A stretch of 64,000 nucleotides of DNA from positions 186,001 to 250,000 of the forward strand of contig LQBI01000001.1 of assembly GCA_002030045.1 (NCBI GenBank), read 5' to 3'. The notes under the pieces are model-generated. The model was not told the DNA's origin and ran no database searches. It worked only from the letters and a program-made list of their open reading frames with translations. Made by a program: the position numbers and the translations under genes. This stretch comes from Candidatus Aegiribacteria sp. MLS_C (GTDB lineage: Bacteria > Fermentibacterota > Fermentibacteria > Fermentibacterales > JCC-6). Below, in pieces: positions 2,143 through 52,985 of this stretch (position 1 is the stretch's first letter; each line of letters starts with the position of its first letter).

Positions 2143-3051
2143 ATGGCCAGAGTACTGATTTGCGATCCCGTCGACCAGACAGCCCTCGAGGCTATGCGCA
2201 GCGCCGGCCATGAAGTGGTGGAGAAGACCGGCATGACACCGGAGGAACTCCTCGAGACGGCACCGCAGTTCGACGCCATGGTCGTCAGGAGCGCCACCAA
2301 GGTCAGGAAGCCCGTGCTGGAAGCGGCGGCCAGGGGGAACCTGAAGCTCATCGTCAGGGGAGGCGTCGGGCTCGACAACATAGACACCGATGTGGCAGCC
2401 GAGCTGGGAATAACCGTGAACAACACTCCCGCCGCAAGCAGCGTTGCCGTAGCAGAGCTGGCCATGGCCCACATGCTTGCCTGCAGCAGGTTCCTGGGAC
2501 CTGCGAACCTGACCATGAAGAGGGGCGAATGGAACAAGAAGGCCTACGGGAAGGGCAAGGAGCTGTTCGGTTCGACCCTGGGTCTCATCGGTTTCGGACG
2601 GATTTCCTGCGAAGTGGGGAAGATGGCCGGGGGTTTCGGCATGAAGGTGATCTTCTTCGATCCATACATAGATGACGCGGCGGACGCCCAGAAGGTCGAT
2701 CTTGACACCCTTCTCAGGCAGTCGGACTTCATCAGCCTCCACATTCCCCACAACAAGGAGACCCACTACCTGCTCGACGCTCCCCAGTTCGGAATGATGA
2801 AGGACGGCGTGGTGATAGTGAACTGCGCCAGGGGCGGCACCATCAACGAGTCCGCCCTTCTCGAGGCCATCGATTCCGGCAAGGTGTTCGCCGCCGGCGT
2901 GGACGTCTTCGAGGAGGAACCTCCCGCAGATAATCCTCTCGTAATGAACGAGAGGGTCGTCGTCACACCCCACATCGGCGCCGGTACCGCGGCTGCGGGC
3001 AAGAGGGTGGGCGGCGAGGTGGCAAAGAAGATAATCGCCTTCTTCGAATAA
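2143..3051 (+). CDS. D-3-phosphoglycerate dehydrogenase-like 2-hydroxyacid dehydrogenase
   Basis: This is an NAD-dependent D-isomer 2-hydroxyacid dehydrogenase of 302 residues, most like the short SerA form without an ACT domain. SerA oxidises 3-phosphoglycerate in serine synthesis. Visible are the N-terminal substrate domain (RSATKVRKPVLE, RGGVGLDNID), the Rossmann loop GLIGFGRIS, and the catalytic Arg (NCARGGTIN), Glu (DVFEEEPP) and His (TPHIGAGT). A strong AGGAGG lies 7 nt before the ATG. Without the regulatory domain, feedback control by serine is not expected. Another hydroxyacid substrate such as glycerate cannot be excluded. Confidence 0.85.
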   Translation: MARVLICDPVDQTALEAMRSAGHEVVEKTGMTPEELLETAPQFDAMVVRSATKVRKPVLEAAARGNLKLIVRGGVGLDNIDTDVAAELGITVNNTPAASSVAVAELAMAHMLACSRFLGPANLTMKRGEWNKKAYGKGKELFGSTLGLIGFGRISCEVGKMAGGFGMKVIFFDPYIDDAADAQKVDLDTLLRQSDFISLHIPHNKETHYLLDAPQFGMMKDGVVIVNCARGGTINESALLEAIDSGKVFAAGVDVFEEEPPADNPLVMNERVVVTPHIGAGTAAAGKRVGGEVAKKIIAFFE

Positions 3052-3088: not shown

Positions 3089-4417
3089 ATGCGGAAAGAC
3101 TGGATTGGCATTCCAGCCCTCGGGATTCTCCTTCTGCTTGCCTCTTTTGCCGCAGCTCAGGATGCCGTCGAGGAAATGACGCAGGATGCGGATCCCCGGC
3201 CCGGGGAGATGATGGAGGATACGGCGGGAGTAGAGGGTACCCAGCTCCAGCCGGCAGTGGAGGGAGTGCCCGAAGAGCCTGGTCCCGCCCTTGACGTTCC
3301 GGGAGCCATAACCGTCGAGGACAAGGACAACGATGCCGGGGACCAGCTGGTTGTCTGCTTCGAGCCCCCGGCGGACACATCCGGCGTCTTCGCCTACAAT
3401 GTCTACAGGCGCAAGGCGGGGGAGACGGGCGAGGTGAGCTGGAACCTGGTGAAGATCATCCCTGTTCTGGGACCCACCCTGTTCATCGACGGTTACGACC
3501 CGGAATATCCGATAGAGCCCGGCACCAGGTACGAGTACAGGGTAGCTTCCGTGAGCCTGGAGGGCGAGGAGTACTTCGGTGAGCCGCAGGTGGCACAGGC
3601 AGTTCCCGCCGGGGAACTCTACCATACCGGGAAGACAAAGGTCCTGATAGCCGGCGGGCTGTTCATCTTCCTCATCTTCTACTACTTCGGCAAGGCCCAG
3701 CGGGGCAGGCAGATGTACCTCAGACCCATTGCCGGCATAGAGGCCATCGACGAGGCCATAGGAAGGGCAACCGAGATGGGCAAGCCGGTCCTGTACGTGC
3801 CGGGTCTGTCCACTATCTCCGACGTGGCCACCATCGCAAGCCTCACCATTCTGGGAAGGGTGGCCAAGAAGGTCGCACAGTACCAGACGCCGCTAATGGT
3901 CCCCAACCGTGATCCAATTGTATACACAGTTGCCGACGAGGCCGTGAAGCAGGCCTATCTGGAAGCAGGAAGACCCGACGCCTTCGATCCCGATTCGGTA
4001 TTCTTCCTGACCGACAGCCAGTTCGCATTCGTTGCCGGTGTGAACGGTATAATGATGAGGGAGAAACCCGCCACCAACTTCTACCTTGGAATGTTCTGGG
4101 CTGAATCGCTGCTCCTGGCGGAAACCGGTTCCCTCACCGGGGCCATTCAGATAGCGGGGACCGACGCGGTCACCCAGCTGCCGTTCTTCATAACCACCTG
4201 TGACTACACACTGATTGGGGAGGAGCTGTACGCCGCCAGCGCCTACCTCGGCCGCGAACCCAAGCAGATAGGCGCGGTCAAGGGACAGGACGCGTGCAAG
4301 GGGATAATAATGGCGTTCATTACGATCGCTTTCGTTCTGTCCATCCTGGACATGGTCGCGGATACGGAGACCCTGGAATGGGTCAGGCGCATCGTGACCG
4401 TGCCCATTGTGGACTAG
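3089..4417 (+). CDS. membrane protein with Fn3-like N-terminal domain and conserved DUF6754-type domain (cluster gene 1)
   Basis: A 442-residue protein with a signal peptide (hydrophobic run ending SFAAAQ), an acidic linker (about 25-75), and a fibronectin-type-III-like domain (about 80-170, containing FAYNVYRRKAG and RYEYRVASV). A transmembrane helix (GLFIFLIFYYFG) is followed by a long, highly conserved cytoplasmic domain beginning RQMYLRPIAGIEAIDEAIGR and ending with a second hydrophobic segment. I recall a Pfam family of this kind (DUF6754) but cannot check the match. It opens a four-gene cluster of membrane proteins. A paralogue at 8869-10026 is nearly identical over the conserved domain. 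The ribosome site is AGGAAAGG before the ATG. Function unknown. Confidence 0.85.
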   Translation: MRKDWIGIPALGILLLLASFAAAQDAVEEMTQDADPRPGEMMEDTAGVEGTQLQPAVEGVPEEPGPALDVPGAITVEDKDNDAGDQLVVCFEPPADTSGVFAYNVYRRKAGETGEVSWNLVKIIPVLGPTLFIDGYDPEYPIEPGTRYEYRVASVSLEGEEYFGEPQVAQAVPAGELYHTGKTKVLIAGGLFIFLIFYYFGKAQRGRQMYLRPIAGIEAIDEAIGRATEMGKPVLYVPGLSTISDVATIASLTILGRVAKKVAQYQTPLMVPNRDPIVYTVADEAVKQAYLEAGRPDAFDPDSVFFLTDSQFAFVAGVNGIMMREKPATNFYLGMFWAESLLLAETGSLTGAIQIAGTDAVTQLPFFITTCDYTLIGEELYAASAYLGREPKQIGAVKGQDACKGIIMAFITIAFVLSILDMVADTETLEWVRRIVTVPIVD

Positions 4418-4440
4418 CCCACCGGAGAGGAGTCTGAACA

Positions 4441-5085
4441 GTGAAGAGGACTGTTCCGCTTATGATAGTGATGGTGGGCGGAATACTGATGATGGTTCAG
4501 TATTTCATTCCCCATCAGTACTCCCAGGCCGTCTTCGACAGCTATGTATCCTGGGCCCCCATCATAGCCGCCTTCGCCCTGATCCTGGGAGTAGGCAGCC
4601 TCACGAGGGTGCACGCCCACAAGATCAGGAGGAAGGCAGAGAACTGGCAGTACAGCTGGGCGGTGCTGATACCGCTCTACGCGATGCCGGTGCTGGCCCA
4701 CATATGGCCGGTTTCCCTCTCGGGAGGCATGGACGAACCCAGCATCTTCCACTTCCTTTTCATGCACATCCAGGTCCCCATTCAGGCCACCATGTTCAGC
4801 ATGCTCGCCTTCTACATCGCCAGTGCGGCGTTCAGGGCCTTCAGGGCCAAGTCTGCCCTGGCCACGGTGCTTCTCCTGGCCGCCGTGATAGTCATGCTCG
4901 GCCAGGTCCCGATAGGGGACCTCATCGCCAAATGGTTCCCCCAGATAGGACTGTGGATACTGAGGTATCCCAACCTGGCCGCCAAGCGAGCCATCATGCT
5001 GGGTGTCGGCTTCGGTATACTGGCCACCAACCTGAAGATAATCTTCGGCGTCGAGCGCAACTGGCTCGGCGGGGCCGGGAAGTAG
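4441..5085 (+). CDS. polytopic membrane protein (cluster gene 2)
   Basis: A 214-residue protein with about five or six predicted membrane helices (for example MIVMVGGILMMVQYF, IIAAFALILGVGSL, TVLLLAAVIVMLGQV), joined by short loops, one carrying the basic run HAHKIRRK. The start is a GTG at 4441 behind GGAGAGGAG. I do not recognise the family. It lies 23 nt after cluster gene 1 and directly abuts gene 3, so it is presumably a subunit of the same membrane assembly. Confidence 0.8.
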   Translation: MKRTVPLMIVMVGGILMMVQYFIPHQYSQAVFDSYVSWAPIIAAFALILGVGSLTRVHAHKIRRKAENWQYSWAVLIPLYAMPVLAHIWPVSLSGGMDEPSIFHFLFMHIQVPIQATMFSMLAFYIASAAFRAFRAKSALATVLLLAAVIVMLGQVPIGDLIAKWFPQIGLWILRYPNLAAKRAIMLGVGFGILATNLKIIFGVERNWLGGAGK

Positions 5086-5094
5086 GTGATCGGC

Positions 5095-6087
5095 ATGAAC
5101 ATCTGGGAGAGAATGCTCAACATCGACAGACGATGGATATTCCTTTCCATCGGCGTGGTCTCAATCATCCCCTTCCTTACCAAGATCGGTCTGCCCGTGA
5201 GCACCACCGAGGAGGTGGAGGACATCTTCACCTACATCGATTCGCTGGGCAAGGAGAATGCCATCTTCATCAGCTTCGACTTCGACCCGGGCACCCAGGC
5301 CGAGAACATGCCCATGGGAGTTGCGGTAATGCGCCATGCCTTCCACAATCACGTTCCGGTGTTCCTCACCGCCTACACACCTCTGGGACACGGAATGGCC
5401 GGAGGGGCGCTGGACTACGTGACACGACCTTCGACTCCGGGGTACTACACCAGTGTGGACTTCGACGAGTGGGCCGATATCAGGAATGCAGGGATCACAG
5501 ACAGGGATGAACTGGAAGCGGCATGGGAAGAGGCCGGCAATGTGCTTCCGGATGATTCCCATGGCTGGGTCTTCGAGGGCAGGGACTTCGTATACCTCGG
5601 TTATGCCCCGCTGTTCCATCTGGTGATCCTGGGAATGACCTCCTCCATCGAGACCCAGTACCCGTCCGACGCCCACGACAACCCGCTGTCCGAGATGCCC
5701 ATCCTGAGGGAGCACAAGAGCCTCAGGGAGGTGGACCTCGCTGTGACGACCTCGGGTTCCTCCGCATGCACCGCCTGGGTGATCTACGGCAGGGAGAAGA
5801 TAGGGCTGCCGGTGGCCTTCGGCGTGACAGCGGTCAGCGCCACCGACTACTACCCCTACATCCAGTCGGGCCAGATAATCGGCCAGATGGGAGGTCTTCG
5901 GGGTGCCGCCGAGTACGAGGTTCTCCTGCAGCAGAACGGCATCACCGAGACCACCGACAAGGCCTTCACCGGGATGGACGTCCAGTCCGCCGACCACCTG
6001 CTGATAATCTTCTTCATAATCATGGGCAACATCGCTTACTTCATGGGGGGATTCCACAGGAAGAAGCAGCTGAAGGGAGGGAGGTAG
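5095..6087 (+). CDS. membrane-anchored protein with large extracytoplasmic domain (cluster gene 3)
   Basis: About 330 residues. There is one N-terminal membrane helix (IFLSIGVVSIIPFLTKIG) and one at the C-terminus (LLIIFFIIMGNIAYFMGGF), with a soluble domain of roughly 270 residues between them. That domain contains FISFDFDPGTQAENMPMG, FLTAYTPLGHGMAGG and VTTSGSSACTAWV. The ATG at 5095 is preferred over GTG 5086 because AGGTGA lies 5 nt upstream. The two-helix topology with a folded insert suggests a sensing or scaffold subunit. I do not recognise the family, and a function would be guesswork. Confidence 0.8.
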   Translation: MNIWERMLNIDRRWIFLSIGVVSIIPFLTKIGLPVSTTEEVEDIFTYIDSLGKENAIFISFDFDPGTQAENMPMGVAVMRHAFHNHVPVFLTAYTPLGHGMAGGALDYVTRPSTPGYYTSVDFDEWADIRNAGITDRDELEAAWEEAGNVLPDDSHGWVFEGRDFVYLGYAPLFHLVILGMTSSIETQYPSDAHDNPLSEMPILREHKSLREVDLAVTTSGSSACTAWVIYGREKIGLPVAFGVTAVSATDYYPYIQSGQIIGQMGGLRGAAEYEVLLQQNGITETTDKAFTGMDVQSADHLLIIFFIIMGNIAYFMGGFHRKKQLKGGR

Positions 6088-6090
6088 GAA

Positions 6091-6720
6091 ATGTACGAGA
6101 TCATAGGCATCTGGGTCGGGGCCTTCTTCACCCTGGCCATCTATTCCTTCCTCTACAAGGAGAACCCCGTCTACCGTCTGGCCGAGCATCTGGTGGTGGG
6201 CATATCCCTGGGTTACACCATGGCGATAACCTACGATGTGGTGCTGAAGCCCAGGCTGATCGAACCACTCCTGGCCGGAGGCTCGTGGATCCTTCTTATC
6301 CCCGCATTGCTGGGGCTCCTCTACATAACCAGGTTCATTTCCAGCATAGCGTGGCTCTCAAGGTATCCCATCGCCTTCGTCCTCGGGACCGGCATGGGAG
6401 TCGGGTTCCCCCTCACCATGAAGAGCAACGTACTCAGGCAGCTTGAAGCCGCCATGATACCCTTCTACCAGGAGGGCATGCCCTGGCACATGGTCCTGGG
6501 CAACGTGGTCCTCGTCCTGGGAACGCTTGCGGCGCTCATCTACTTCTTCTTCTCCAAGCCGCACAAGGGTTTCTTCTTCGGGACCGGTTCCAGGATAGGT
6601 ATCTGGATCATCATGCTCGGGTTCGGTGCCACCTTCGGGTTCACCGTCATGGGCCGTATCAGCCTGCTCATTGGAAGGATACAGTACCTTCTCGGAGACT
6701 GGCTCCACCTCATAGAGTGA
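6091..6720 (+). CDS. polytopic membrane protein (cluster gene 4)
   Basis: A 209-residue protein with about six hydrophobic helices (IIGIWVGAFFTLAIYSF, LVVGISLGYTMAITY, ILLIPALLGLLYITRF, VLGNVVLVLGTLAALIYFFF, IIMLGFGATFGFTVMG). It begins 3 nt after gene 3, behind GGGAGG, and is followed by a strong GC-rich hairpin, so the cluster seems to end here. I do not recognise the family. The conserved order and tight spacing argue that genes 1-4 form one membrane complex. Confidence 0.8.
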   Translation: MYEIIGIWVGAFFTLAIYSFLYKENPVYRLAEHLVVGISLGYTMAITYDVVLKPRLIEPLLAGGSWILLIPALLGLLYITRFISSIAWLSRYPIAFVLGTGMGVGFPLTMKSNVLRQLEAAMIPFYQEGMPWHMVLGNVVLVLGTLAALIYFFFSKPHKGFFFGTGSRIGIWIIMLGFGATFGFTVMGRISLLIGRIQYLLGDWLHLIE

Positions 6721-6730
6721 GGAGCGCTGA

Positions 6731-6755
6731 CGGGGCCGGGTCCTCCCCGGCCCCG
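6731..6755 (+). terminator. GC-rich hairpin after the membrane cluster
   Basis: A perfect 10-bp stem (CGGGGCCGGG at 6731-6740 pairing with CCCGGCCCCG at 6746-6755) closes a 5-nt loop, 10 nt after the stop of cluster gene 4. No U-tract follows, so it is either a Rho-independent terminator of the U-less kind or an RNA-stabilising 3' hairpin. Confidence 0.6.
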
Positions 6756-6769
6756 TCACTCCTTCGAAC

Positions 6770-6893: not shown

Positions 6894-6969
<76 letters not shown>

Positions 6970-8868: not shown

Positions 8869-10026
8869 ATGATCACCGCATTGATTGCCGCTGGGGTAGT
8901 GCTCGTTCAGCCAATACAGGTCAGCGATATCCAGGATAGACCGAACGACGCGGGTGACGGCCTACTGGTGTACCTGCAGATGCCGGAGGTAACCGACGAG
9001 ATACTGTCCGTCGAGATCTACAGGAGGTCAGTGCAGGAACCCGAGTGCAACTGGCAGCTGGTCATGGTCGAGATGATGCCGGTATGGGATCCCTTTCTCG
9101 TTGACGGATATGACCCTGACTATCCCGTGATCCCCGGTGTTAAGTACGAGTATCTACCTATGACCCTGACCCTGTCAGGTGATACCCTCCCCGGAGAGGT
9201 GGTTGTCTCACCTGTGGTTCCCCGCGGTGAGTTCATCAACACGGACGAGGTATCGGTCCTGGCCGCCAGCGTGGTGTTCATTTTCCTCATCTTCTACTAC
9301 TTCGGTAAGGCACAGCGGGGAAGGGAGATGTACCTGCGGCCCATAGCCGGGATCGAAGCCATAGACGAGGCCATAGGTAGGGCCACGGAGATGGGCAAGG
9401 CCATTCTATACGTACCGGGTCTCTCGACGATCTCTGATGTAGCTACCATAGCAAGTCTTACCATACTTGGCAGGGTCGCCAGGAAGGTTGCAGAGTATGG
9501 AACGGACCTCAGGGTCCCCAACTGCGATCCAATTGTCTACACAGTGGCAACGGAATCTGTGAAGCAGGCCTATCTGGAAGCTGGCAGACCCGACGCCTAC
9601 AGCGATGAATCAGTGTACTTCATCACCGACAGCCAGTTCGCATACGTAGCCAGTGTGAATGGGATGATGATGCGTGAGAGACCCGCTACTAACTTCTATC
9701 TGGGTATGTTCTGGGCTGAATCCCTCCTCCTGGCGGAGACCGGTTCGCTCTCCGGGGCGATACAGATCGCCGGAACGGATGCGGTGACCCAGCTCCCTTT
9801 CTTCATCACCACATGTGATTACACGCTCATCGGTGAAGAGCTTTACGCGGCCAGCGCCTATCTGGGCAGGGAGCCGAAGCAGCTGGGTGCTGTCAAAGGC
9901 CAGGACGCCTGCAAGGCGATCGTGATGGTCCTCATCCTGCTAGGGATCCTCTTCAGCATCCTGCAAATGATAACGGGAAACGAAAGCTTCATGTTCCTGA
10001 AGGACATGATGGTCACCGGGAACTGA
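8869..10026 (+). CDS. paralogue of membrane-cluster gene 1 (DUF6754-type domain)
   Basis: A 385-residue protein whose C-terminal two thirds (from IFLIFYYFGKAQRGREMYL onward) are almost identical in amino acids to the protein at 3089-4417, while the N-terminal Fn3-like domain has diverged strongly. The acidic linker is missing and the N-terminal hydrophobic segment is short. At the DNA level many third positions differ, so the duplication is old and the domain is under strong purifying selection. Here it stands alone, without copies of cluster genes 2-4. AGGA precedes the ATG, and CATAAT about 50 nt upstream may be a -10 element. Function unknown. Confidence 0.82.
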   Translation: MITALIAAGVVLVQPIQVSDIQDRPNDAGDGLLVYLQMPEVTDEILSVEIYRRSVQEPECNWQLVMVEMMPVWDPFLVDGYDPDYPVIPGVKYEYLPMTLTLSGDTLPGEVVVSPVVPRGEFINTDEVSVLAASVVFIFLIFYYFGKAQRGREMYLRPIAGIEAIDEAIGRATEMGKAILYVPGLSTISDVATIASLTILGRVARKVAEYGTDLRVPNCDPIVYTVATESVKQAYLEAGRPDAYSDESVYFITDSQFAYVASVNGMMMRERPATNFYLGMFWAESLLLAETGSLSGAIQIAGTDAVTQLPFFITTCDYTLIGEELYAASAYLGREPKQLGAVKGQDACKAIVMVLILLGILFSILQMITGNESFMFLKDMMVTGN

Positions 10027-10028
10027 TC

Positions 10029-10493
10029 TTGCCAGACCTGCTTGTGCCTCTTTACAGCCTTTCTTCCCTGCCGGTGCTCGAGGGCTTCTGGGTGGGCCGG
10101 CCGCTTCCGCATCAGTCGGAGAAGGTTCTTGACTTCATAGGGGAGACCTTCGGAAGCTCCTGGAAAGCGGAGGCGTCCTCTGCCTTTGGTTCGGTCCCTC
10201 CACGGATCAAGGTGGCGGTGGACGAAACCGGTAGGCTGCTAGGCTTCTGCTGCTGGGACTGCACCTCGCTGGGGTTCCTGGGACCGATTGGCGTGACGGA
10301 AGCAGCCAGGGGCAGGGGTATAGGGAAGGCCCTGGTCCTCTCGGTGCTGTACAGCATGAGGGAGGCCGGTTACGCCTACGCCGTCATAGGTGGAGCCGGT
10401 CCGGTGGACTTCTTTCGGAGTATCTGCGATGCCAGAGTCATCGAGGGCAGCGATCCCGGCATCTACGGCAACCCCATTCAGGGACGGACCTGA
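10029..10493 (+). CDS. GNAT-family acetyltransferase, C-terminus altered by an inverted-repeat element
   Basis: A 154-residue protein with the GNAT acetyl-CoA loop (GVTEAARGRGIGKALVLSVL) and a following strand AYAVIGGAGPVDFF. The start is a TTG at 10029, two nt after the preceding stop. A GTG at 10044 is an alternative. The last residues (GRT) and the TGA stop are supplied by the left inverted repeat of the element at 10480-10619, so the original C-terminus was probably different or longer. The substrate is unknown. Motif A is intact, so activity is possible. Confidence 0.7.
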   Translation: MPDLLVPLYSLSSLPVLEGFWVGRPLPHQSEKVLDFIGETFGSSWKAEASSAFGSVPPRIKVAVDETGRLLGFCCWDCTSLGFLGPIGVTEAARGRGIGKALVLSVLYSMREAGYAYAVIGGAGPVDFFRSICDARVIEGSDPGIYGNPIQGRT

Positions 10494-36805: not shown

Positions 36806-36880
36806 ATGACTGTAAAAAGCTGGTCTTGCCGGACCCGCTGCATTGCTGGAAGCCCCCACCGGACAAGGAGACGGATTTGA
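36806..36880 (+). CDS. putative 24-residue leader ORF
   Basis: An ATG at 36806, with AGGAG 4 nt upstream (36797-36801), opens a 24-codon basic frame ending in TGA at 36878-36880. The stop overlaps the TTG start of the C25 protein gene (TTGA). The arrangement looks like translational coupling. There is no evidence for a functional peptide beyond the ribosome site and the exact overlap. Confidence 0.3.
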   Translation: MTVKSWSCRTRCIAGSPHRTRRRI

Positions 36881-39800
36881 TCGCCGCCCTAATGAGCTTG
36901 ATTATGCTGGCCGCAGCCACGGACCGTGAAGCTGTGGATTTCACAGAATCCGGACCCGACGGCTGCACGATGACCATCCGGGTGGAACCTCCATCCTACA
37001 GGGTCTACCGGGACAGGTGGTATCCCGTTGTGCACGGCATGACCGGAACCTGCCTGCCGGGACTTCCCGTGCTTCCCGCGGTCACCGTCTACGTGCCGGT
37101 CCCTCCGGACTGCGATCCGGAAATGGAATACGACCACTCCGGCAGGATCCAGCTGGATATACCGGGTCCTCTGCTGGTCACTCCCGTGGCGGTCGGGAGC
37201 GGCCTCGAGACGGAATGGGAGATCCCTGAAGCCGAGAGGGGGGCGGCCCTTCCGGAGATGGTGGAGGTGAGGACTTTCCAACTGGCGGGTACCAGGGTGG
37301 CGGCGGTCACCGTTCACCCGTTCTCCGGAATGGACGATGGCTGGATCCCTTCCAGCATCCAGGTCCGGCTGCACTGGCCCAGGACGGGTGGAAGCAGGAG
37401 CCCTGACACGCCCCTCCTCAGGGTTCTCTGCGCCGGTGGTCTCGAGTACTGGCCCGCAGGGAGGACCTCCGACGGTCCCGGACCCTTCTGGGGCAGACCC
37501 TGGGCAAGGATGGCCATCTCCGCCTCCGGCATCTACATCGTTACCGGCTCGCAGCTGGAGGACGCAGGCGTGGGAATAGCCGGTGCGCCTTCCAGGAGCC
37601 TCAGGGTCCTGACCGGTCCCGGCCTTATGTTCGACCTGGACGATCCTGCGGCGGAGCATCAGCCCGTTGAGGTCCCAGTGGAGGTAATGGACGGCGGGGA
37701 CGGCATATTCGACGAGTCGGACTCCCTGAAGTTCTTCGGTCGCGGTCTGTCCAGGCTCGATCTGGAGGGTGAGGGTGCAACGCCGCGCAGGACGATGCAC
37801 CGCTATGCGGACCACAACGTCTACTGGCTCACGTGGGGGGCCGAGGACGGTCTCAGGGTGGATACGGTGGAAGCGCTTCCCGACGGTTCCCCCCAGTGGG
37901 GGGACAGTCTAAGGTACGATATATGGCAGGAACAGGACTACCTCTGGGTCGGAGGCCAGGATTCCCTTACGGGATGGGTATGGACGCAGCTCTTCGAGGG
38001 TATCCCCAGCTATTTCTACTTCAGCACCCCCTCCGCCGACGGAAGCGGCAGTGTGCGTTTCCTGATGGTGCCGGAGACAGGGAACAACGGACCCCACGAG
38101 ATGACTGCGGAACTCAACGGTGACGTGATAGGAGATACGGTCTGGACCACTGACGATCCCAGGGAATTCCTCTTCGATGGACTCGACCTCGATCCCTCAA
38201 TGAACCTGCTCAAGGTAACTGTGGACGAATCCCCGGGGAAGTTGTACCTGGACTACATGATGGCCGATTATTCCCGAAGGCTCGACTATGCCGCCAGCCG
38301 CATGCTGAGTTTCGCCGGCGCGGTGCCCGGGAGGTACACCCTCTCACTCGGTGGAGCGCTCTCGTCCTCGTCGCTCCTTGACCTTTCCGATCCCGGGAAT
38401 CCGGTGAGGATCAGGGGGCAGCTCTCCGGCGCCCTTCTCGAGACCAGCATGGACATCGACCGGAGCAGGTGTCTCTGGCTCGAAGGGGAGGAAGGCTACC
38501 GTGTGCCGGATTCCATTACCTCAGCTGAACCCGGCAGGATAATGGGCAGCGTCGTCGAGGGGGAGGTCGCCATTGTGGTGGCCGACCAGCTCATGGAGGC
38601 GGCCCAGCCCCTGGAGACGATCTACGCTGGCAGGGGGCGCACAGCGGCGGTGGTGGCCGCAGGTGAGGTCTACGACGAGTTCGGGCAGGGCATCAGGGAC
38701 CCGGGCGCCATAAGGTCCTTCTTCCGCTATACGCAGGACTCCTGGAGCCAGCCTGCGGAAGCCCTGCTCCTGGTTGGGGACGGCTCCTACGATCCAATGA
38801 TGCATGTCACCTCAAATCCCACGCTCATACCGATATGCCTCGATCTGGTCTCTTCTGCCGGGACCAATATCGACGACCGGTACGTCATCGCCCACGAGAA
38901 CGGGGAGCTGCCCGAGGTCCCGGTATCCCGCATTCCCGTCTCCTCGGCCGCCGAACTCTCCGGATACCTGGCCAAGCTGATGTCCTACGACGGCCGCCAG
39001 GCCTCCGGGCAGTGGGAGAACAGGGTGATACTGGCTGCGGACGATGAATGGGGCAACTACAGTGTCAACGAGTACGATCACACTGAGAGCTGCGAACTCC
39101 TTGCGGACACCATACTGCCGTCAAGGCTTGACAGGGAGAAGTTCTACCTCATCGAGTTCCCGTGGCCTCCGGGGACCACTCCCTCAGGGGTCCACCCGGA
39201 GAAACCGGAGGCCCGCCAGGCGTTCATTCAGGAACTGTCGGAAGGCTGCGCCGGAATGATCTTCTTCGGCCACGGTTCCTACGGACAGCTGGCCCACGAG
39301 AAGATACTGGTCTCCAGCGACGTGCAGGTCATCGACAACGGGGGACGCCTGCCGGTGATGATATTCGCCAGCTGCGACCTGGCCCATTTCGACATGTCAT
39401 CGGCAAAGTGCCTTGCCGAGGACTTCCTCCTCATTCCCGGATCGGGCTCGGTGGTGTCCATAGGTTCCACGCGGGAGTCCTACTCCGGCCAGAACGAGGA
39501 CCTGTTCGCCGGCTACTATTATTACCAGTACGGAGATGACGACCTCACCGTCGGAGAGTCCATGTGGGCGGCGAAGGTGGTCTACGCGCCGATCCAGTAC
39601 TACAACAGCAGGCTCTACGTGACCCTTGGGGACGGAGGGATCCTCCCTGTCGGCTCATCCTCCGAGGGATGCAGTTTCGACGTCGAGGGTGATTCCCTCT
39701 ACCGCGGCCGTATGAACACCGTCTACGGAGAGTTTACCTCGGGCTCCTCCGGCTTCGTCCGGGTGACCGAGAGCGGCATGCAGTCCAGCTACAGCGGCCT

Positions 39801-40659
39801 GGGTTCAGGTTCGGTGGACTATCTACATTACGGGTCCGATGTATACCAGGGACTCGTAAGTAGTGACGGGACCGGCTTCACCGTACCTTTCTTCATGCCC
39901 GTCCAGGCCGACACCGGATCGTACTCCAGGGGTTCGGCGGTGGGGCTGTGTTCCGGCGGCAGCCAGGTGGCCCACAGGGAATGGATACGCGTTCTGGACG
40001 ACGGTGTCCATGATCAGGATTCCCTTCCTCCGGAGATAGAGATGTGGCTGGAGGGCCACAGAGGGGAGGACCATCCCTCGGTGAGCGGCCAGACGACCAT
40101 CTGGGGTATAATCTCCGATCCCAGCGGTGTATGTGCCATGGGGGCCGGAGCCGGAAGGTCGGTACTGCTGAGCCTTGACTCCCAGGGCTTCGACGTGAGC
40201 AGGTATTTCCAGTACAGACCAGACAGCTATACAACCGGAGAACTGGAGTACGCACTCCCCGAGATGACGGAGGGGGAACACCGGCTCATACTGGCCGCCT
40301 GGGACGGAATGGGCAACGCAGGGAGGGACACGCTCGACTTCAGCGTGGTCCAGGCCCCGGACGAACTCCTCTCTTCCGTATTCGCATATCCGAACCCCGG
40401 TGCCGGACAGAGATGTTTCAGTTTCGAGGCCGCCGTCTCCGGTACGGCCGGAATAAAGGTATACACGGTCTCGGGCAGATGCATCTGGAATGAGACTGTC
40501 ATCTGCCGTGAAGGATACAACCAGGTCGTCTGGAACGGCCTCGACATGGACGGCGACCCTCCGGCCTCGGGTCCCTATGTCTACAGGGTGGATCTCTCCA
40601 CCCTGAACGGATCCTCCGCCTCATTCACCGGGATCCTCGCCGTGATGAACGAGGAATGA
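36877..40659 (+). CDS. C25 (gingipain-like) family secreted protein with FlgD-type C-terminal domain
   Basis: A 1260-residue protein. The TTG at 36877, 6 nt after AAGGAG, gives a signal peptide (IAALMSLIMLAAA). The N-terminal region is beta-rich. The peptidase C25 domain carries the catalytic His799 (FFGHGSYGQLAHE) and Cys833 (FASCDLAHF), 34 residues apart, and conserved SRIPVSSAAEL. The C-terminus is an Ig-like FlgD/Por-type segment (YPNPGAGQRCFSF, YNQVVWNGLDMDGD, SGPYVYRVDL). It is probably exported and anchored at the surface. Whether it is an active protease is not known. It starts the plus-strand surface operon. Confidence 0.87.
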   Translation: MIAALMSLIMLAAATDREAVDFTESGPDGCTMTIRVEPPSYRVYRDRWYPVVHGMTGTCLPGLPVLPAVTVYVPVPPDCDPEMEYDHSGRIQLDIPGPLLVTPVAVGSGLETEWEIPEAERGAALPEMVEVRTFQLAGTRVAAVTVHPFSGMDDGWIPSSIQVRLHWPRTGGSRSPDTPLLRVLCAGGLEYWPAGRTSDGPGPFWGRPWARMAISASGIYIVTGSQLEDAGVGIAGAPSRSLRVLTGPGLMFDLDDPAAEHQPVEVPVEVMDGGDGIFDESDSLKFFGRGLSRLDLEGEGATPRRTMHRYADHNVYWLTWGAEDGLRVDTVEALPDGSPQWGDSLRYDIWQEQDYLWVGGQDSLTGWVWTQLFEGIPSYFYFSTPSADGSGSVRFLMVPETGNNGPHEMTAELNGDVIGDTVWTTDDPREFLFDGLDLDPSMNLLKVTVDESPGKLYLDYMMADYSRRLDYAASRMLSFAGAVPGRYTLSLGGALSSSSLLDLSDPGNPVRIRGQLSGALLETSMDIDRSRCLWLEGEEGYRVPDSITSAEPGRIMGSVVEGEVAIVVADQLMEAAQPLETIYAGRGRTAAVVAAGEVYDEFGQGIRDPGAIRSFFRYTQDSWSQPAEALLLVGDGSYDPMMHVTSNPTLIPICLDLVSSAGTNIDDRYVIAHENGELPEVPVSRIPVSSAAELSGYLAKLMSYDGRQASGQWENRVILAADDEWGNYSVNEYDHTESCELLADTILPSRLDREKFYLIEFPWPPGTTPSGVHPEKPEARQAFIQELSEGCAGMIFFGHGSYGQLAHEKILVSSDVQVIDNGGRLPVMIFASCDLAHFDMSSAKCLAEDFLLIPGSGSVVSIGSTRESYSGQNEDLFAGYYYYQYGDDDLTVGESMWAAKVVYAPIQYYNSRLYVTLGDGGILPVGSSSEGCSFDVEGDSLYRGRMNTVYGEFTSGSSGFVRVTESGMQSSYSGLGSGSVDYLHYGSDVYQGLVSSDGTGFTVPFFMPVQADTGSYSRGSAVGLCSGGSQVAHREWIRVLDDGVHDQDSLPPEIEMWLEGHRGEDHPSVSGQTTIWGIISDPSGVCAMGAGAGRSVLLSLDSQGFDVSRYFQYRPDSYTTGELEYALPEMTEGEHRLILAAWDGMGNAGRDTLDFSVVQAPDELLSSVFAYPNPGAGQRCFSFEAAVSGTAGIKVYTVSGRCIWNETVICREGYNQVVWNGLDMDGDPPASGPYVYRVDLSTLNGSSASFTGILAVMNEE

Positions 40660-41423
40660 ACTCCGGAAAGGCCGCCCCGGAAGGTCTGGAGCTGGCGGTC
40701 GAGCTTCTTCGTTCCAGTTACCTCCCGGTGGTCTCCACCGGCGCCGGGATGTCCAGGGAGAGCGGTGTGCGTACCTTCAGGGGCGAAGAAGGCTACTGGA
40801 GGGAGCACAGGGCCGAGGACCTGGCTTCACTTGAGGGAATAAGGAAGGACCCGGTCCTGGTCTGGGAGTGGTACCGGGAAAGGCTCGGGGCCTGTGAGGA
40901 GTTGATCCCGCATAAGGGTTACGAAGCCCTCTACCGTCTACAGGAGCACAGTGGAAGGCTCCCCGTGGTGACGCAGAACGTGGACGGGCTCCATCAGAAG
41001 GCCGGGATCAGGGACGTCATAGAACTCCACGGCAGCCTGAGGACGGCCTCCTGCCTGGCAGGATGCGGCGCTCCGCCGGTCCGCATGGAACAGGGTCTCT
41101 TCGAGAACATGCCCCCGAGGTGCGTCTGCGGCAGCATTCTCAGACCGGATGTCGTTCTCTTCGGGGAGGACCTTCCCGAACAGGCCCTGAAGCGGGCATT
41201 AAGGCTTGCCGGGAGATGTGACCTGATGATAGTTGTGGGTACGTCCATGGTGGTGTATCCCGCCGCTGCGCTTCCCATGATAGCCCTGAGGAGCGGGGCA
41301 CGGGTGATAGAGATAAATACAGTGGAAACACCTCTTTCCTCGCTGGAGGGGACCCTGTTCCTGAGAGGGACCGCGGGAAGTGTTCTTCCCGAGCTGGCAA
41401 AGGCGGTTATTCGATCATGCTGA
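40656..41423 (+). CDS. sirtuin-type NAD-dependent protein deacylase
   Basis: A 255-residue cytoplasmic sirtuin. NAD site GAGMSRESGVRTFR, TQNVDGLHQKAG, catalytic His125 in ELHGSLR, zinc cysteines (CLAGC and RCVCG), RPDVVLFGE and VVGTSMVVYPAAAL are all present. It removes acyl groups from lysines using NAD. The ATG overlaps the preceding C25 gene stop (ATGA), and its own end overlaps the next C25 gene by 7 nt, so all three are translationally coupled. A cytosolic enzyme between two exported giants is unusual. Confidence 0.93.
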   Translation: MNSGKAAPEGLELAVELLRSSYLPVVSTGAGMSRESGVRTFRGEEGYWREHRAEDLASLEGIRKDPVLVWEWYRERLGACEELIPHKGYEALYRLQEHSGRLPVVTQNVDGLHQKAGIRDVIELHGSLRTASCLAGCGAPPVRMEQGLFENMPPRCVCGSILRPDVVLFGEDLPEQALKRALRLAGRCDLMIVVGTSMVVYPAAALPMIALRSGARVIEINTVETPLSSLEGTLFLRGTAGSVLPELAKAVIRSC

Positions 41424-44400
41424 TCTCGCTGTTGTTCCTGGTGTCCGTTTCCCAGTCAGTCGAGCCCCTGCCTGCGGATCCCTCGTCGGGATTCGCCGCG
41501 GTTGTCCAGTTCCCGGAACCGGGGATCGCGGAACTGGAGAGCGGTGTATACCCGGTGTTCAGCGGTATCCCCACAAGGTTCCAGCCGGGGGAGCCTCCCC
41601 GTCCCGTCTTGACCCTCTTCGTTCCGGTCCCTCCGGGCGCCAGACCGGAGCTCAGTTTCTCCGCCGGGGGCTACAGGCCGACCGGTGCGGCATCCTCCAC
41701 GGTCCTCACACCGGCTCTGCAGGGAGGCGGCCTATCCGTCCGGGAAGTGCCTGTGGAAAGGGTGGCACCGCCATCCAGTCACGCCGTGCTGGAGGGCGTC
41801 ATACCCGTCGCCGGGACCTCCGTTGCCATGATCGACGTCTATCCGGTGGTGGACCCGTCCGGTGCCGAGTACGCTTCAAGCGTGTCCCTGGAACTGAGCT
41901 GGGAAGCGGAAAGCGGAGGCATTCCCGTTGAACGAAGCACGCTGCTGCGTCTCCTGGCCCCTTCCGGAACCCTCTACTGGAGGGGGTATCCGCGGCGATC
42001 CTGCAGAAGTGAGTTCTGGGGCATGCCCTGGGCCAGGATATCGATCCCTGAAAGCGGCGGCTACTCAGTAACCGGAAGTCGGCTTGAGCAGAGCGGCTGC
42101 CAGGTGACAGGCACCCCGTGCGCCACGCTTCGAATGCTCTCCGGGCCCGGGGTGATGTTCACCAGTGCTCCCGAGGACAGCCACGCGCTGCAGGAGGTTG
42201 CGATAGCGGTGATCGATGCCGACGGGGACGGGGTATTCGATGAAGAGGACCAGGTGAGGTTCTTCGGAAGGGGTCTCTCCCGCTGGGAGCAGGAGGGCCA
42301 GGAACTGGTCAGGCTGGAACACAGGTATGCAACCCACAACGTCTACTGGCTGACATGGGGAGGGGAGAACGGGAGGCGGATTGGTACGGTCCAGGGCGCT
42401 CCCGATACATCTCCGGGCTGGGGCGGCACCATTCGCACGGACCTGTGGCTGAGGGAGGAGAACGAGTGGCTTCCCCGCTATGAGACCGCCACGGGCTGGG
42501 TATGGCAGACCATAGTCGAGGGGGAGAGCATCTCCGTGCCCTTCCAGGTCGGTGACCAGGGCAGCTGCGACGTATCCGTGAAAGTCATCATGGACGGTTC
42601 CCAGCAGCACACTGTCAGCCTCAGGATCAACGGGACCGAGGTCCTGAACGAATCCTGGTACGGTTCCGGTACAAGGCTCCTTCAGGCGGAGGACGTACAG
42701 CTCTCCGGCTCATGCGATCTCCAGGTGGTGTTCGAGGATGACCTGGGGGACAGCGAACTCTCCCTGGTGTCGATCAGGGTGGAGTACTCGGAACGGCCCG
42801 GCGATCTGACGGGCCGATTCCTGTTCCCGTCCAGGGAGAAGACCGGCAGGTTCAACTTCGCCGTTTCCGGAGCCTCCTCCACATGCCTCGCCTACGATGT
42901 CACTCATCACAACGACCCCCTGGCGGTTGAGGGGGGGGAATACTCCGGAGGTTCCTACAGCTTCTCCTTCCAGGTGGATCCCGGTTCGGGGCTCATCATC
43001 ATGGACAGCCAGGACTGGATGACGCCGGATTCCGTCGTGTCAGCAAATCCCGGCAGGCTTGCGGGGACCGTGACACAGGGGGACAGGCTCCTTGTGGTTC
43101 ATCCGTCCATGTACGACGGTACCTGGGGCATGCTCCAGGTCCTCGAGCAGCAGGGTCATATGCCGGTGGTGGCCACGACCACGGAGATCTACGACGAGTT
43201 CGGACAGGGGGTGGCGGATCCCGGAGCCATAAGAGCGGCAGTGAGGTGGGCGATGGACACCTGGACACCGGGATTGTCGGGACTGATCCTCGCAGGAGAC
43301 GGACACTACGATTTCCTCGGCCACGCCACCTCGCAGCCGGTAATGGTTCCTCCCTGGGTCCGCCTGGGCACCGGTCAGACCGATTGTGTCGACGATCTCT
43401 TCGTCATGGTCCACCCGGAAGCGGTACTTCCGGAGATTCCTGTATCAAGGATCCCGGCTGACAATCTGTCTCAGCTGGGTACCTGCACCGCCAAGCTCAT
43501 CTCGTATTACCAGGAGAATAATTCCGGCGACTGGACAGGCAGGGCGCTCATCGTGGCAGACGATGAATGGGGCCAGTCCGGGTCCTGGAACGAGACCGAG
43601 CATACAGTGAACTGCGAACGGATAGCCGAGGAAGTGCTCCCCAGATGGTTATCCAGGGAAAAGTTCTACATGATCGAATACCCGTGGCCTCCGGGACCGT
43701 GGACACCGGAAGGACCACATCCCGAGAAACCTGAAGCGAGAGACAGCTTTCTGGAGACCTTCGACAGGGGGTTCCTCTTCATGTTCTACGAGGGACACGG
43801 TGCCGGCAACCAGATAGCTCACGAGGTCCTCATGACCGACGAGGACGTCAGCGGGATGAGCAACGGCCACCGTCTGCCGGTTTCGTTCTGGGCCACCTGC
43901 GACGTGGGGCATTTCGACGATCCGGGCTCCGACGCCATCGGAGAGAGGCTGGTGCTCCATCCGGCCGGCGGCTGCATATCCAGCGTGGCGGCCACCCGCG
44001 GGACCTACGGCGCCTCCAACTACCAGTACTTCAGGAGCGTCATAGATTCCCTCTGCAGCGATCCTCAGCTTTCGGCGGGGGAGGCGGTCTGGCAGTCAAA
44101 ACTTGCGCTGTCAGCTTCCTACAGCAACAACAGGTTCTACGTGATGTTCGGTTATCCCGACCTGCCGCTGGCATTTCCAGGGACCGGGGGAACCGTTTCC
44201 GTCGAGGGGGACACCCTGCGCAGCGGCGAGCTGAACACGATCGTGGGGCGGGATTTCCAGCAGGAAGGTCTCGCTTTCGTCCAGGTCCTGGAGTCGTCAT
44301 GGAACACCGTCTACACCTGCCTGGGGGGAGCCCAGATCCCCTACCTCAGGTACGGCGGAACCGCCTACAGCGGTACTCAGACCGTCGAGGACGGGGAATT

Positions 44401-45190
44401 CTCCATTCAGTGCTTCATACCCCTTCAGTCGAATACGGGTGACATGTCCAGGGCGGCCGGACTGGCCATCTCCAGTGAGCTTTCCGATGCGGGTGCGCTG
44501 GACCCGGCGGTTCTGGTGGAGGGGAACCCCTCCGGCGGCGACCTGCTTGGTCCGGAGGTTCAGATGTGGATAGACGGGTACGAGGGTGTGTCCTTTCCGG
44601 AACTCACGGGAGACGTGACCCTCGAGGCGGCCATAAGCGATTCAAGCGGCATCTGCCTCCTGGGCGGCGCCGGAAGGGAACTCAGCCTGTTCATCGACGG
44701 TCTCTGCGTTGACGTGAGCCGCCACTTCTCCTACGACAGGGGCAGCTCCGTTTCTGGAAGACTGGAGTACGGCATCGAATCCCTGGCCGAGGGTGAGCAC
44801 ACGCTGATACTCTGGAGTTTCGACGGACTGGGCAACAGCTCCCGGGACACTCTGGAACTGAGGATACTCCAGGAGAGCGACCTCTCGCTGACCGAGACCC
44901 TGGTCTACCCCAACCCCGGAAGCGGTTCCAGGTGTTTCAGTTTCAGGGTTTCCGAGGACGCTCAGGTGACCGTATCCATCTACACCGTGGCGGGTACCAG
45001 GATCGAGGAACTGACCGCGATCTGTTCCCAGGGCTACAACCAGCTCTTCTGGAACGGCCTCGACCACGACGGTGATCCCGTTGCGGGGGGACCCTACATT
45101 TACAAGATTAGGGCGGATGCCCTCGGTTCCTCCGTATTCAGCAGAACCACGGAGGAATACGGAGTGCTGGCGGTCATTTCGGAGGAATAA
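41417..45190 (+). CDS. second C25 (gingipain-like) family secreted protein with FlgD-type C-terminal domain
   Basis: A 1257-residue paralogue of the protein at 36877-40659 with the same layout. There is a signal peptide (MLISLLFLVSVSQSV), a beta-rich N-terminal half (NVYWLTWGGENG), and a C25 domain with His794 (YEGHGAGNQIAHE) and Cys828 (WATCDVGHFDD), the same 34-residue spacing. A C-terminal Ig-like sorting segment follows (YPNPGSGSRCFSF, YNQLFWNGLDHDGD, GPYIYKI). The two copies are clearly diverged, so both may have separate substrates. Its start overlaps the sirtuin stop. Confidence 0.87.
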   Translation: MLISLLFLVSVSQSVEPLPADPSSGFAAVVQFPEPGIAELESGVYPVFSGIPTRFQPGEPPRPVLTLFVPVPPGARPELSFSAGGYRPTGAASSTVLTPALQGGGLSVREVPVERVAPPSSHAVLEGVIPVAGTSVAMIDVYPVVDPSGAEYASSVSLELSWEAESGGIPVERSTLLRLLAPSGTLYWRGYPRRSCRSEFWGMPWARISIPESGGYSVTGSRLEQSGCQVTGTPCATLRMLSGPGVMFTSAPEDSHALQEVAIAVIDADGDGVFDEEDQVRFFGRGLSRWEQEGQELVRLEHRYATHNVYWLTWGGENGRRIGTVQGAPDTSPGWGGTIRTDLWLREENEWLPRYETATGWVWQTIVEGESISVPFQVGDQGSCDVSVKVIMDGSQQHTVSLRINGTEVLNESWYGSGTRLLQAEDVQLSGSCDLQVVFEDDLGDSELSLVSIRVEYSERPGDLTGRFLFPSREKTGRFNFAVSGASSTCLAYDVTHHNDPLAVEGGEYSGGSYSFSFQVDPGSGLIIMDSQDWMTPDSVVSANPGRLAGTVTQGDRLLVVHPSMYDGTWGMLQVLEQQGHMPVVATTTEIYDEFGQGVADPGAIRAAVRWAMDTWTPGLSGLILAGDGHYDFLGHATSQPVMVPPWVRLGTGQTDCVDDLFVMVHPEAVLPEIPVSRIPADNLSQLGTCTAKLISYYQENNSGDWTGRALIVADDEWGQSGSWNETEHTVNCERIAEEVLPRWLSREKFYMIEYPWPPGPWTPEGPHPEKPEARDSFLETFDRGFLFMFYEGHGAGNQIAHEVLMTDEDVSGMSNGHRLPVSFWATCDVGHFDDPGSDAIGERLVLHPAGGCISSVAATRGTYGASNYQYFRSVIDSLCSDPQLSAGEAVWQSKLALSASYSNNRFYVMFGYPDLPLAFPGTGGTVSVEGDTLRSGELNTIVGRDFQQEGLAFVQVLESSWNTVYTCLGGAQIPYLRYGGTAYSGTQTVEDGEFSIQCFIPLQSNTGDMSRAAGLAISSELSDAGALDPAVLVEGNPSGGDLLGPEVQMWIDGYEGVSFPELTGDVTLEAAISDSSGICLLGGAGRELSLFIDGLCVDVSRHFSYDRGSSVSGRLEYGIESLAEGEHTLILWSFDGLGNSSRDTLELRILQESDLSLTETLVYPNPGSGSRCFSFRVSEDAQVTVSIYTVAGTRIEELTAICSQGYNQLFWNGLDHDGDPVAGGPYIYKIRADALGSSVFSRTTEEYGVLAVISEE

Positions 45191-46372: not shown

Positions 46373-49300
46373 ATGAGGATACCCTTGACGATCATTCCGC
46401 TCTTCCTGGTACCGGCGGTGCTGGTGTCCCAGGTCCCTTCCGTGGAGGTATACTGCGATCCGGGCCAGTTCCAGCAGATGGTGGAACTCTACGAGGAGGA
46501 GATCGAGATAGACTGCACGGTGATCGTCGGCGACACCGTGTACGCAGGGTCCCGTATTCGGCTGAGAGGGGACACCTCGAGAGGGTATCCGAAGAAATCG
46601 TTCCGCATAGACCTCGCCGACAGCAGCTCCTGGGATGGAAGGGTGGAGTGGGACTTCAACTCCGAGTACACGGATTCCACCTACATACATCCATGGCTCT
46701 TTTCCTGGATCCTCACGAACCTCGACTATCCCTGCTTCCGTACCGACCATTACAGGTTCTACGTAAACGACGAATACAAAGGGCTCTACCTCAGGAGCGA
46801 ACCTGTCGACGAGCAGTTCCTCTCCAGCAGGGGAATGGATCCGGACGGGAACCTCTACAAGGCTTCCGTCGACGGTTCCTGCCTCAGCAGGTACGATGAC
46901 GTGCCTCTTGTATGGGAGAAGAAGGCCAACGAGAGCGAGGGATGGAACGACCTCTACCAGCTCATAGAGTACATGGACCAGGTGGACCCTGCGGCGTTCC
47001 ACGAGACGGCCTGGGAGGTCTTCGACCTGAACGACCTCATCACGATACTGGCGGTCAACACCCTGACCATGAACTTCAGCACCTACTACCACAACTACTT
47101 CGTATACAGGGACATTCGAGGCACCGGGCTCTGGACGGTCCTCCCCTGGGACGTGGACAAGCTGTGGGGGGACTGGACCTGGAGGACCTACACCGCCGGA
47201 GTGAACAACTTCTGGTACGACAACCCGCTTATCGAGAAGGTCATCCTGGACCCTGTGCTCTTCGAACTCTACTACGACCGGATGGACTCCATCGCCGCAC
47301 AGCTCCTGACCCCGGAGTTGGTGGGTCCGGTGATAGACTCTCTGGAGGCGGTCCTGGCAGGTGCCGTTGCCGATGACGACTACGACGCCATAACAGCTGA
47401 CGATTTCCACACCGCCATCGCCAGGCTGCGGGACGAGAGGATACCGGGCAGGATCGTTGGACTGAACTACATGTACGGAAACGATGTGAGGTCTTTCAGT
47501 GCCTTCTGTGGCGACACGGTCTCGCTGGGCGACAAGTTCGTGAACTGGGAGGCCGCCGTGGATCCCCAGGGGGATTCCGTCGACTACAGGCTGTATCTCT
47601 ACACCGAAGAGGGCTGGCCGCTGGACCCCATCGAGACCCTGGCCCTGGCCGATACATTCCACACCTTCACATCGCTTCCCCCCGGCGGCTACGTGTGGAG
47701 GGTGGAGGCAGGCACCGGGGGCGACAGGTACACGGAGGCCTACGACCGCTACAATCCCTTCACGGTCATCGATTCATGGACGGTGCTCTCCGGCACCCTC
47801 TCGGGCAGCACGGTCCTGACCCCGGAGGATTCCCCCTACCTGGCGGTCTCCGACCTGCTCATACCCGAAGGCTCATCCCTCACCGTCCAGGGCGGGGTGG
47901 ACATCCGCCTTGAGGAGGACGTCAGCATCGACTGCAGCGGAGAGATCATCTGCATGGGGAATTCGGCGGACTCGGTGAGGTTCCTGCCCGACGACGGGTC
48001 AAGGCCCTGGGGCGGAATAAGGCTGCAGGGAGCGGAAGCCTGGATGACCTGCGTCTCTTTCTTCGGTTCCGTGGGGTTCGGCGGCTCGGGCCAGGACAAC
48101 GCCCTTATCCTCGGACAGCACTCGGACCTGGTCCTGAAGGGATGCTCCTTCACCGGGAACACCCGGTGTATCAACCTGACAGGAGGCAGCGTTGTTATGG
48201 ACAGCTGCCGCCTCACCGGATGGAACAGCGGGGAACTTTTCTTCATGGAGGATGGAGACTCGGCCCTCATCGAGAACAGCAGCTTCGGCAACATGGTGGA
48301 CCCACCTAGTCCGTGGCATGACGGGGTGGAGTTCCAGGACTGCCGCAGCGGCAGCTATATCGTCAGGAACTGCGAGGTGTTCAACATCCAGGGAGACGCC
48401 ATCGACAGCAACAGCAGCAACATGACAGTCGAGCACTGCAGTGTCCGGGACGCGGCGGACAAGGGCTTCTCCATAGGCATAAACGCACCCGGAAGCCACA
48501 TATCCACCGTCGAGCTGATGAACAACACGGTTTCCGGATGCTACACGGGCATCGCGGTGAAGGACGATTCATACGCGGATATCTTCAGCTGCACCGTGAC
48601 ACAGTGCGACATCGGCGTCAGGGCCTACAACAAGACCGCAGGCTCCGGAGGCGGTTACGCCACAGTGCTCAACGGGATCGTCCACGCCTGCAGCGAGACC
48701 TTCAGCTTCGAGGACGGGTCCGTGGTTGAAGTCGCCTACAGCCTCACCGGATCAGAGTATTCCTGGCCGGGAGAGGGCAACATCGCCGGAGACCCGCTCT
48801 TCGCACCCTGGGTAGGAACGGACTACCATCTGTCCTACGAATCCCCGTGCATAGACTCGGGTGATCCCTCGATGGAGGACCCCGACGGCACCAGGTCGGA
48901 CATGGGGGCGGTCTTCTTCCCGCAGTTCCTCGACGACCTCTACATCAACGAGTTCCAGTCGGTGAACGACACCACGATAGCAGACTCCTACGGCGACTAC
49001 GACGACTGGTTCGAACTCTACAACGGCTCAGACTGGGACTGCGACCTCAGCTGGGTCTTCGTCTCCGACGACCCTTCCCGGCTGGAAACGTACCAGTTCC
49101 CTCCCGGCACGGTCATTCCCGCCGGAGGCTACCTTATCGTATGGGCCGACGGACATCCATGGCAGGACGGTCTTCACCTGCCCTTCGCTCTGTCCTCGGA
49201 AGGCGACAGCATCTACGTTTCACGCCAGCCGGCGGAACCCTCTTCCGGAGATGCGGAAGGCAGCCGGACAAGGGCCCTCAAGCTGGTCGACTCGGTCAGC

Positions 49301-49702: not shown

Positions 49703-49721
49703 ACGGAAACTGGAGGTTACA

Positions 49722-50321: not shown

Positions 50322-50366
50322 CAGTATCCTCAGACCGGAACTCCCATCTGAGGGCAGCTGTACCCG

Positions 50367-52896: not shown

Positions 52897-52985
52897 TGTT
52901 CAAGCTCCTCGATCATTCATGTACATGAAGAGTAACGATAACATACCGTGCACCCGGGACCAATACCCACACCCGCCGCACACCG

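Follow-up and report, generated by a model that had tools for sequence, protein, structure and literature searches.

In energy-coupling factor (ECF) transporters a shared cytosolic energising module serves several membrane units, and in PilM/PilNOP and FtsA-type complexes an actin-like (ASKHA) cytosolic protein is combined with inner-membrane proteins bearing periplasmic domains. Both are compared here, as to way of working only, with a system found in the window, that is, the whole stretch of 64,000 nucleotides (nt) analysed from Candidatus Aegiribacteria sp. MLS_C (contig LQBI01000001.1, positions 186,001 to 250,000). The window carries four consecutive genes for membrane proteins, D, M2, M3 and M4, of which D contains DUF6754 (PF20539), a Pfam family carrying no function and known under its DUF name alone. 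As judged by genome comparison, the four genes make up one conserved unit with a MutL/KOW partnership, belong to a family of paralogues and are linked to glycine cleavage genes. That the four proteins form one assembly, as the first-pass annotation of this DNA supposed, is well supported by near-perfect co-occurrence, conserved order and matched copy number; the putative assembly seems, however, to be larger than proposed, and MutL and KOW, encoded elsewhere in the genome, would belong to it as well. X117, X152, KOW and M2 to M4 are names coined in this analysis.

The four-gene cluster

Gene calls placed four consecutive genes on the + strand at 3089-6720, exactly where they had been annotated.

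3089-4417, + strand: D (gene 1), 442 amino acids (aa); PF20539 at residues 175-424 (E=5.5e-114) and an Fn3 fold match; layout by hydropathy and the positive-inside rule
4441-5085, + strand: M2 (gene 2), 214 aa; polytopic, 5-6 helices by hydropathy
5086-6087, + strand: M3 (gene 3), 333 aa; two transmembrane (TM) helices around a predicted periplasmic alpha/beta domain
5095, + strand: ATG, alternative start of M3
6091-6720, + strand: M4 (gene 4), 209 aa; polytopic, about 6 helices; motif SFLYKDNPFYKFAEHLFVG
6728-6758, + strand: GC hairpin 3' of M4, 13-bp stem (z -4.9), a possible operon end

Gaps of 3-23 nt had been reported between the genes. The first (23 nt) and the last (3 nt) were as described, but M2 and M3 are separated by 0 nt, or by 9 nt from the alternative ATG. 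The hairpin said to end the cluster is present, with a perfect stem of 13 bp (arms TGACGGGGCCGGG/CCCGGCCCCGTCA) and not of 10; a U-run does not directly adjoin it, and it is a plausible candidate for a terminator. Hydropathy scanning agreed with the membrane-protein layout given earlier for all four products.

D consists of a signal peptide, an Fn3-like domain, a TM helix, DUF6754 and a C-terminal TM helix. By the positive-inside rule, DUF6754 is predicted to be cytosolic and the Fn3-like domain periplasmic. DUF6754 had been suggested as the first family to test for this gene, and the match proved strong: over the full domain D scored 380 bits, and a solo paralogue in the window 385, against a curated cut-off of 27. 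The Fn3-like domain stayed below the Pfam fn3 gathering score (12.7 bits versus 25), but the Fn3 beta-sandwich was recovered by fold search of the D model (best Fn3 structure match E 6.3e-6, probability 1.00), this region being modelled at a predicted local distance difference test score (pLDDT) of about 85-93. The search gave only Fn3 because DUF6754 was modelled with low confidence, and profile search of the PDB with D yielded no convincing match. DUF6754 is dense in invariant residues (R212, G225-R226, T228-E229, Q311, R324, E339, E345, Q354, T358, C371-D372, G377-E378-E379, D401 and K404), a pattern as expected of a putative ligand site or tight interface.

M2, which adjoins D in nearly all loci, is best conserved in the stretch FxxLAFxxASAxxRAFR. 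In M3, two helices enclose a soluble insert of ~270 residues, which the positive-inside rule predicts to be periplasmic, with both N and C termini inside. The structure model of M3 reached pLDDT 74.9 and a predicted template modelling score (pTM) of 0.75, and its fold search against PDB and BFVD gave no match at E<=0.001. For M2, M3 and M4, searches with 40-44 relatives each gave no consistent Pfam match; no convincing Pfam, NCBIfam or PDB entry was found, no PDB relative by profile search, and no match among curated families of transporter, respiratory or secretion subunits. The initial impression that the cluster encodes no nameable component of these three kinds was thus borne out in family, PDB and fold searches. 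In two loci (L174 and L173), extra tandem copies of M3 (up to four) were observed beside a single D-M2-M3-M4 unit.

Distribution and co-occurrence of the unit

The bacterial sample comprised 385 genomes, 343 of them outside Fermentibacterota, the phylum of the window's genome (near relatives: Candidatus Aegiribacteria, Fermentibacter and Sabulitectum). Almost every genome of three phyla carries the system, and so do about a quarter of the remaining sampled genomes. DUF6754 was found in 42/42 genomes of Fermentibacterota, 45/47 of the Eisenbacteria phylum and 20/20 of a third phylum, the one holding genome G298, and in 0/14 well-known control genomes. Searches of viral contigs for relatives of D or M3 gave none, and the same was true of plasmids.

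The first-pass annotation had named a lack of co-occurrence of the four genes in other genomes as grounds for rejecting a single assembly; the genes do co-occur. Outside the phylum, D was detected in 90/343 genomes and M3 in 90/343, 88 being shared (phi 0.97). KOW was present in 85 of the 90 genomes with D and in none without it (phi 0.96). Since the sampled genomes are mutually related to unknown degrees and include Eisenbacteria, p-values make the cases look more independent than they are; that the D, M3 and KOW genome sets are nearly identical holds without them. Gene order was equally stable. Among 40 loci taken from genomes with D outside the phylum, 38 kept D-M2-M3-M4, often as 2-3 tandem units, the exceptions being a lone D (L151) and a KOW-D arrangement (L161). 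As this order recurs across phyla, the cluster is far from a chance grouping.

Up to six paralogues occur per genome, and copy numbers of D and M3 are equal in 73 of the 90 genomes. At least two D genes were found in 42 genomes, 35 of which hold a single KOW, suggesting that one cytosolic module is shared. In a tree of 80 DUF6754 domains, the window and solo copies fell in a supported clade (98/85) with Eisenbacteria copies and later tandem units of other genomes, separate from the MutL/KOW-linked copy of their own genome. Judging from this placement, the cluster in the window is no fragment but a second version of the complex, and an old one. At one locus (L177, 7948-11012), D-M2-M3-M4 and a further D are followed by a diverged unit (an Fn3-bearing D-like protein, membrane proteins and a weakly M4-like one) and then by lplA; the family may extend beyond the current models.

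Partner proteins in the fuller block

Across loci the unit recurs within a fuller block in the order X117-X152-MutL-KOW-D-M2-M3-M4. X117 is a small membrane protein. The KOW protein contains lipoyl-like (barrel-sandwich) repeats and a KOW-like end; its label comes from weak NusG/SPT5 profile matches, and weak matches to Biotin_lipoyl and to part of RNA polymerase beta' were also obtained. The partner MutL matches PF13941 (E 7e-125) and carries the phosphate-1, phosphate-2 and adenosine motifs of ASKHA proteins (DxGSTTTK, DIGGATTD and GSGGVLSHAP), conserved across loci, from which it is predicted to be a nucleotide-binding protein of ASKHA fold. PDB profile searches with KOW and MutL gave no convincing match.

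The window's genome holds three DUF6754 genes: D, the solo paralogue (8869-10026) and a copy on another contig (C35), which lies within the fuller block. In a sister genus, a gene for a MutL-KOW fusion protein of 916 aa comes after a cluster of the window type (L019/L124). The window's genome likewise encodes such a fusion, of 949 aa, alone on a separate contig (C32; L201, 8322-11171), and it retains the nucleotide motifs GSTTTK, GGATTDV and GSGG. By eye, a probable histidine ammonia-lyase-like gene and a radical-SAM-like gene adjoin the C32 fusion.

Link to glycine cleavage

Gene order is the strongest clue to function. The glycine cleavage genes gcvT-gcvH-gcvPA-gcvPB lie upstream of the block in Fermentibacterota, in Eisenbacteria, in a family of 20 genomes forming its own phylum (f72), and in genomes G222, G236 and G154; gcvPB was seen at the block in G217 and G190. 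Downstream, lplA (lipoate-protein ligase) is found in many of the gcv-linked lineages and also in G400. The gcv and lplA names were assigned by homology among loci and recognition by eye, the P protein being checked also with PF02347; partial gcv sets at some loci are due to contig ends or gene calling. By coordinates, a P-protein gene lies at most 8 kb from KOW on the same strand in 6/37 surveyed D genomes, against 0.2 expected, and in the MutL tree the gcv-linked lineages are spread over several deep branches. P protein was present in 39/40 genomes with D. The first-pass annotation spoke of a possible envelope complex with an adhesion-type outer domain; a membrane complex is retained here, but an adhesion role should not be implied, since glycine cleavage is the strongest context.

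Proposed function and alternatives

We tentatively favour, at a little short of an even chance, an inner-membrane complex switched by MutL/KOW that serves glycine and one-carbon metabolism through movement or sensing of a metabolite. D, M2, M3 and M4 would build one complex in the inner membrane, with the Fn3 domain of D and the alpha/beta domain of M3 facing the periplasm and DUF6754 facing the cytosol. Several paralogous membrane units would share one cytosolic module, made of MutL and the barrel-sandwich/KOW protein, which would dock on DUF6754 and switch the membrane unit by nucleotide binding or hydrolysis. Taken as a whole, the system would serve glycine/one-carbon metabolism, and its most likely task would be to move (or sense) a metabolite linked to glycine cleavage. 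In this scheme we infer the topology, the docking, the energising, the transport and the transport substrate. A bolder version, which we consider unlikely, is a new class of machine for membrane transport or energy coupling: an ASKHA protein, in place of an ABC or P-type ATPase, would drive it, one module would power several paralogous units, and the ancestral task would have lain in glycine/one-carbon metabolism.

Several observations weigh against this proposal. P protein is also present in 33/40 genomes without D (p = 0.057), and the full block occurs without nearby gcv genes in many lineages (L146, L148, L155, L171 and L181); for these two reasons the gcv link may stem from an inherited operon. 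No transporter family was detected among the membrane subunits, so that transport gains no support from that side, and no homologue of known mechanism was found for any of them. The MutL and KOW genes of the window's genome lie on contigs other than that of the window, and the cytosolic domain of D is poorly modelled (pLDDT 63 overall). The data do not support a strict requirement for glycine cleavage, the pathway being common also without D. A redox function was set aside, as the searches turned up no family of the Fe-S, haem or flavin kind.

The position of the block in several lineages, flanked by gcv genes on one side and lplA on the other, together with the lipoyl-like repeats of KOW and its weak Biotin_lipoyl and RNA polymerase beta' matches, could also be read as a metabolon scaffold. 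The membrane proteins would then anchor or regulate the glycine cleavage enzymes or the lipoylated H protein, without transport, and KOW would contact the H protein or its lipoyl arm. We hold this improbable: many genomes with the full block have no nearby gcv genes, as many as six paralogues occur per genome, and the large conserved periplasmic part (Fn3 and the M3 domain) and two polytopic subunits exceed the needs of an anchor.

The same periplasmic domains, along with the signal peptide and the absence of gcv neighbours from many copies, would suit a cell-envelope machine for surface assembly or for lipid or protein trafficking, the nearness of gcv being inherited order without functional meaning. 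Omp85 was detected in 40/40 tested D genomes, indicating that these possess outer membranes. It was found, however, in 38/40 genomes without D as well, hence D showed no specific tie to the outer membrane, and such specificity is not demonstrable in a sample that is nearly all Omp85-positive. The frequency of P-protein genes near KOW and their spread over deep branches of the MutL tree argue for a meaningful linkage, and we regard the envelope machine, too, as unlikely.

A transmembrane sensor, with periplasmic domains binding a ligand and the cytosolic side signalling via MutL/KOW, would be consistent with the highly conserved cytosolic domain and with a single cytosolic module for several membrane units. 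This is distinctly doubtful: an output domain (kinase, GGDEF or DNA-binding) was found in none of the eight proteins, and two polytopic subunits would be unusual. Last, the strong Pfam match of MutL might suggest a role as in glutamate mutase operons, that of accessory factor to an adenosylcobalamin amino-acid mutase, in which case the neighbouring membrane genes would be unrelated to it, but this is very improbable and the link to glutamate mutase largely refuted, since MutL scored far under the cut-offs for the GlmL equivalog NF040745 (221.9 bits of 475) and Or-4 (207.4 of 600), the glutamate mutase E subunit (PF06368) is absent from the window's genome, and KOW never occurs without D across the 343 genomes.

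Neighbouring genes in the window

Other features near the cluster were as follows.

2143-3051, + strand: D-isomer 2-hydroxyacid dehydrogenase (SerA-like; Pfam PF02826/PF00389), directly upstream of D
6894-6969: tRNA-Phe (GAA), between the four-gene cluster and a glycosyltransferase gene
8869-10026, + strand: second DUF6754 gene (solo D paralogue), PF20539 E=1.4e-115, 385 bits; 68% identical

The window copy of the cluster sits 3' of transketolase halves and the SerA-like dehydrogenase, the latter being conserved next to it in about 30 loci of Fermentibacterota and possibly in the same transcription unit as D. These neighbours would fit serine/glycine metabolism, of which they are only suggestive. 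The solo DUF6754 paralogue is followed by a GNAT acetyltransferase (8869-10493) without M2-M4, and about 27 Fermentibacterota loci keep this pair. Positions 36826-45190 encode two very large proteins in tandem (1277 and 1257 aa), the first with a peptidase C25 (gingipain-type) domain and the second similar by eye. At 46373-55505, two CotH-kinase proteins flank a VTC-domain gene, one of them carrying a type IX secretion sorting tail (Por_Secre_tail).

Comparison with known systems

Nothing relevant emerged from literature searches on the operon, on DUF6754 and on GlmL in connection with glycine cleavage, subscription papers lying outside their coverage, and the system appears to be undescribed. 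Known pieces, namely the DUF6754 name and the MutL family, do not define it, and its proposed function is putative. One of its eight genes carries a domain under a mere DUF name, and its remaining membrane subunits fall into no family. If the link to glycine cleavage is functional, it would point to a membrane step so far unknown in a central one-carbon pathway, and with partners so constant the question lends itself to direct testing.

With respect to the Pfam entry PF20539, D of the window matches the whole domain, while the fixed partners M2, M3, M4, KOW and MutL have not been described with DUF6754. The partner MutL shares its fold family with the MutL/GlmL accessory proteins (PF13941, NF040745) and has the ASKHA nucleotide motifs intact; it differs in lying under the GlmL equivalog cut-off, in a genome lacking glutamate mutase, and in its coupling to a membrane complex and KOW. 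As in PilM/PilNOP or FtsA-type complexes, an ASKHA protein goes together with inner-membrane, periplasmic-domain proteins, a likeness in way of working only: the block contains no pilus, secretin or division gene, and neither MutL nor M3 was found to match these families in sequence. Copy numbers suggest that, likewise to ECF transporters, one shared cytosolic energising module serves several membrane units, a sharing drawn from gene counts; in place of an ABC ATPase, EcfT and S component, the system described here has an ASKHA-type protein.

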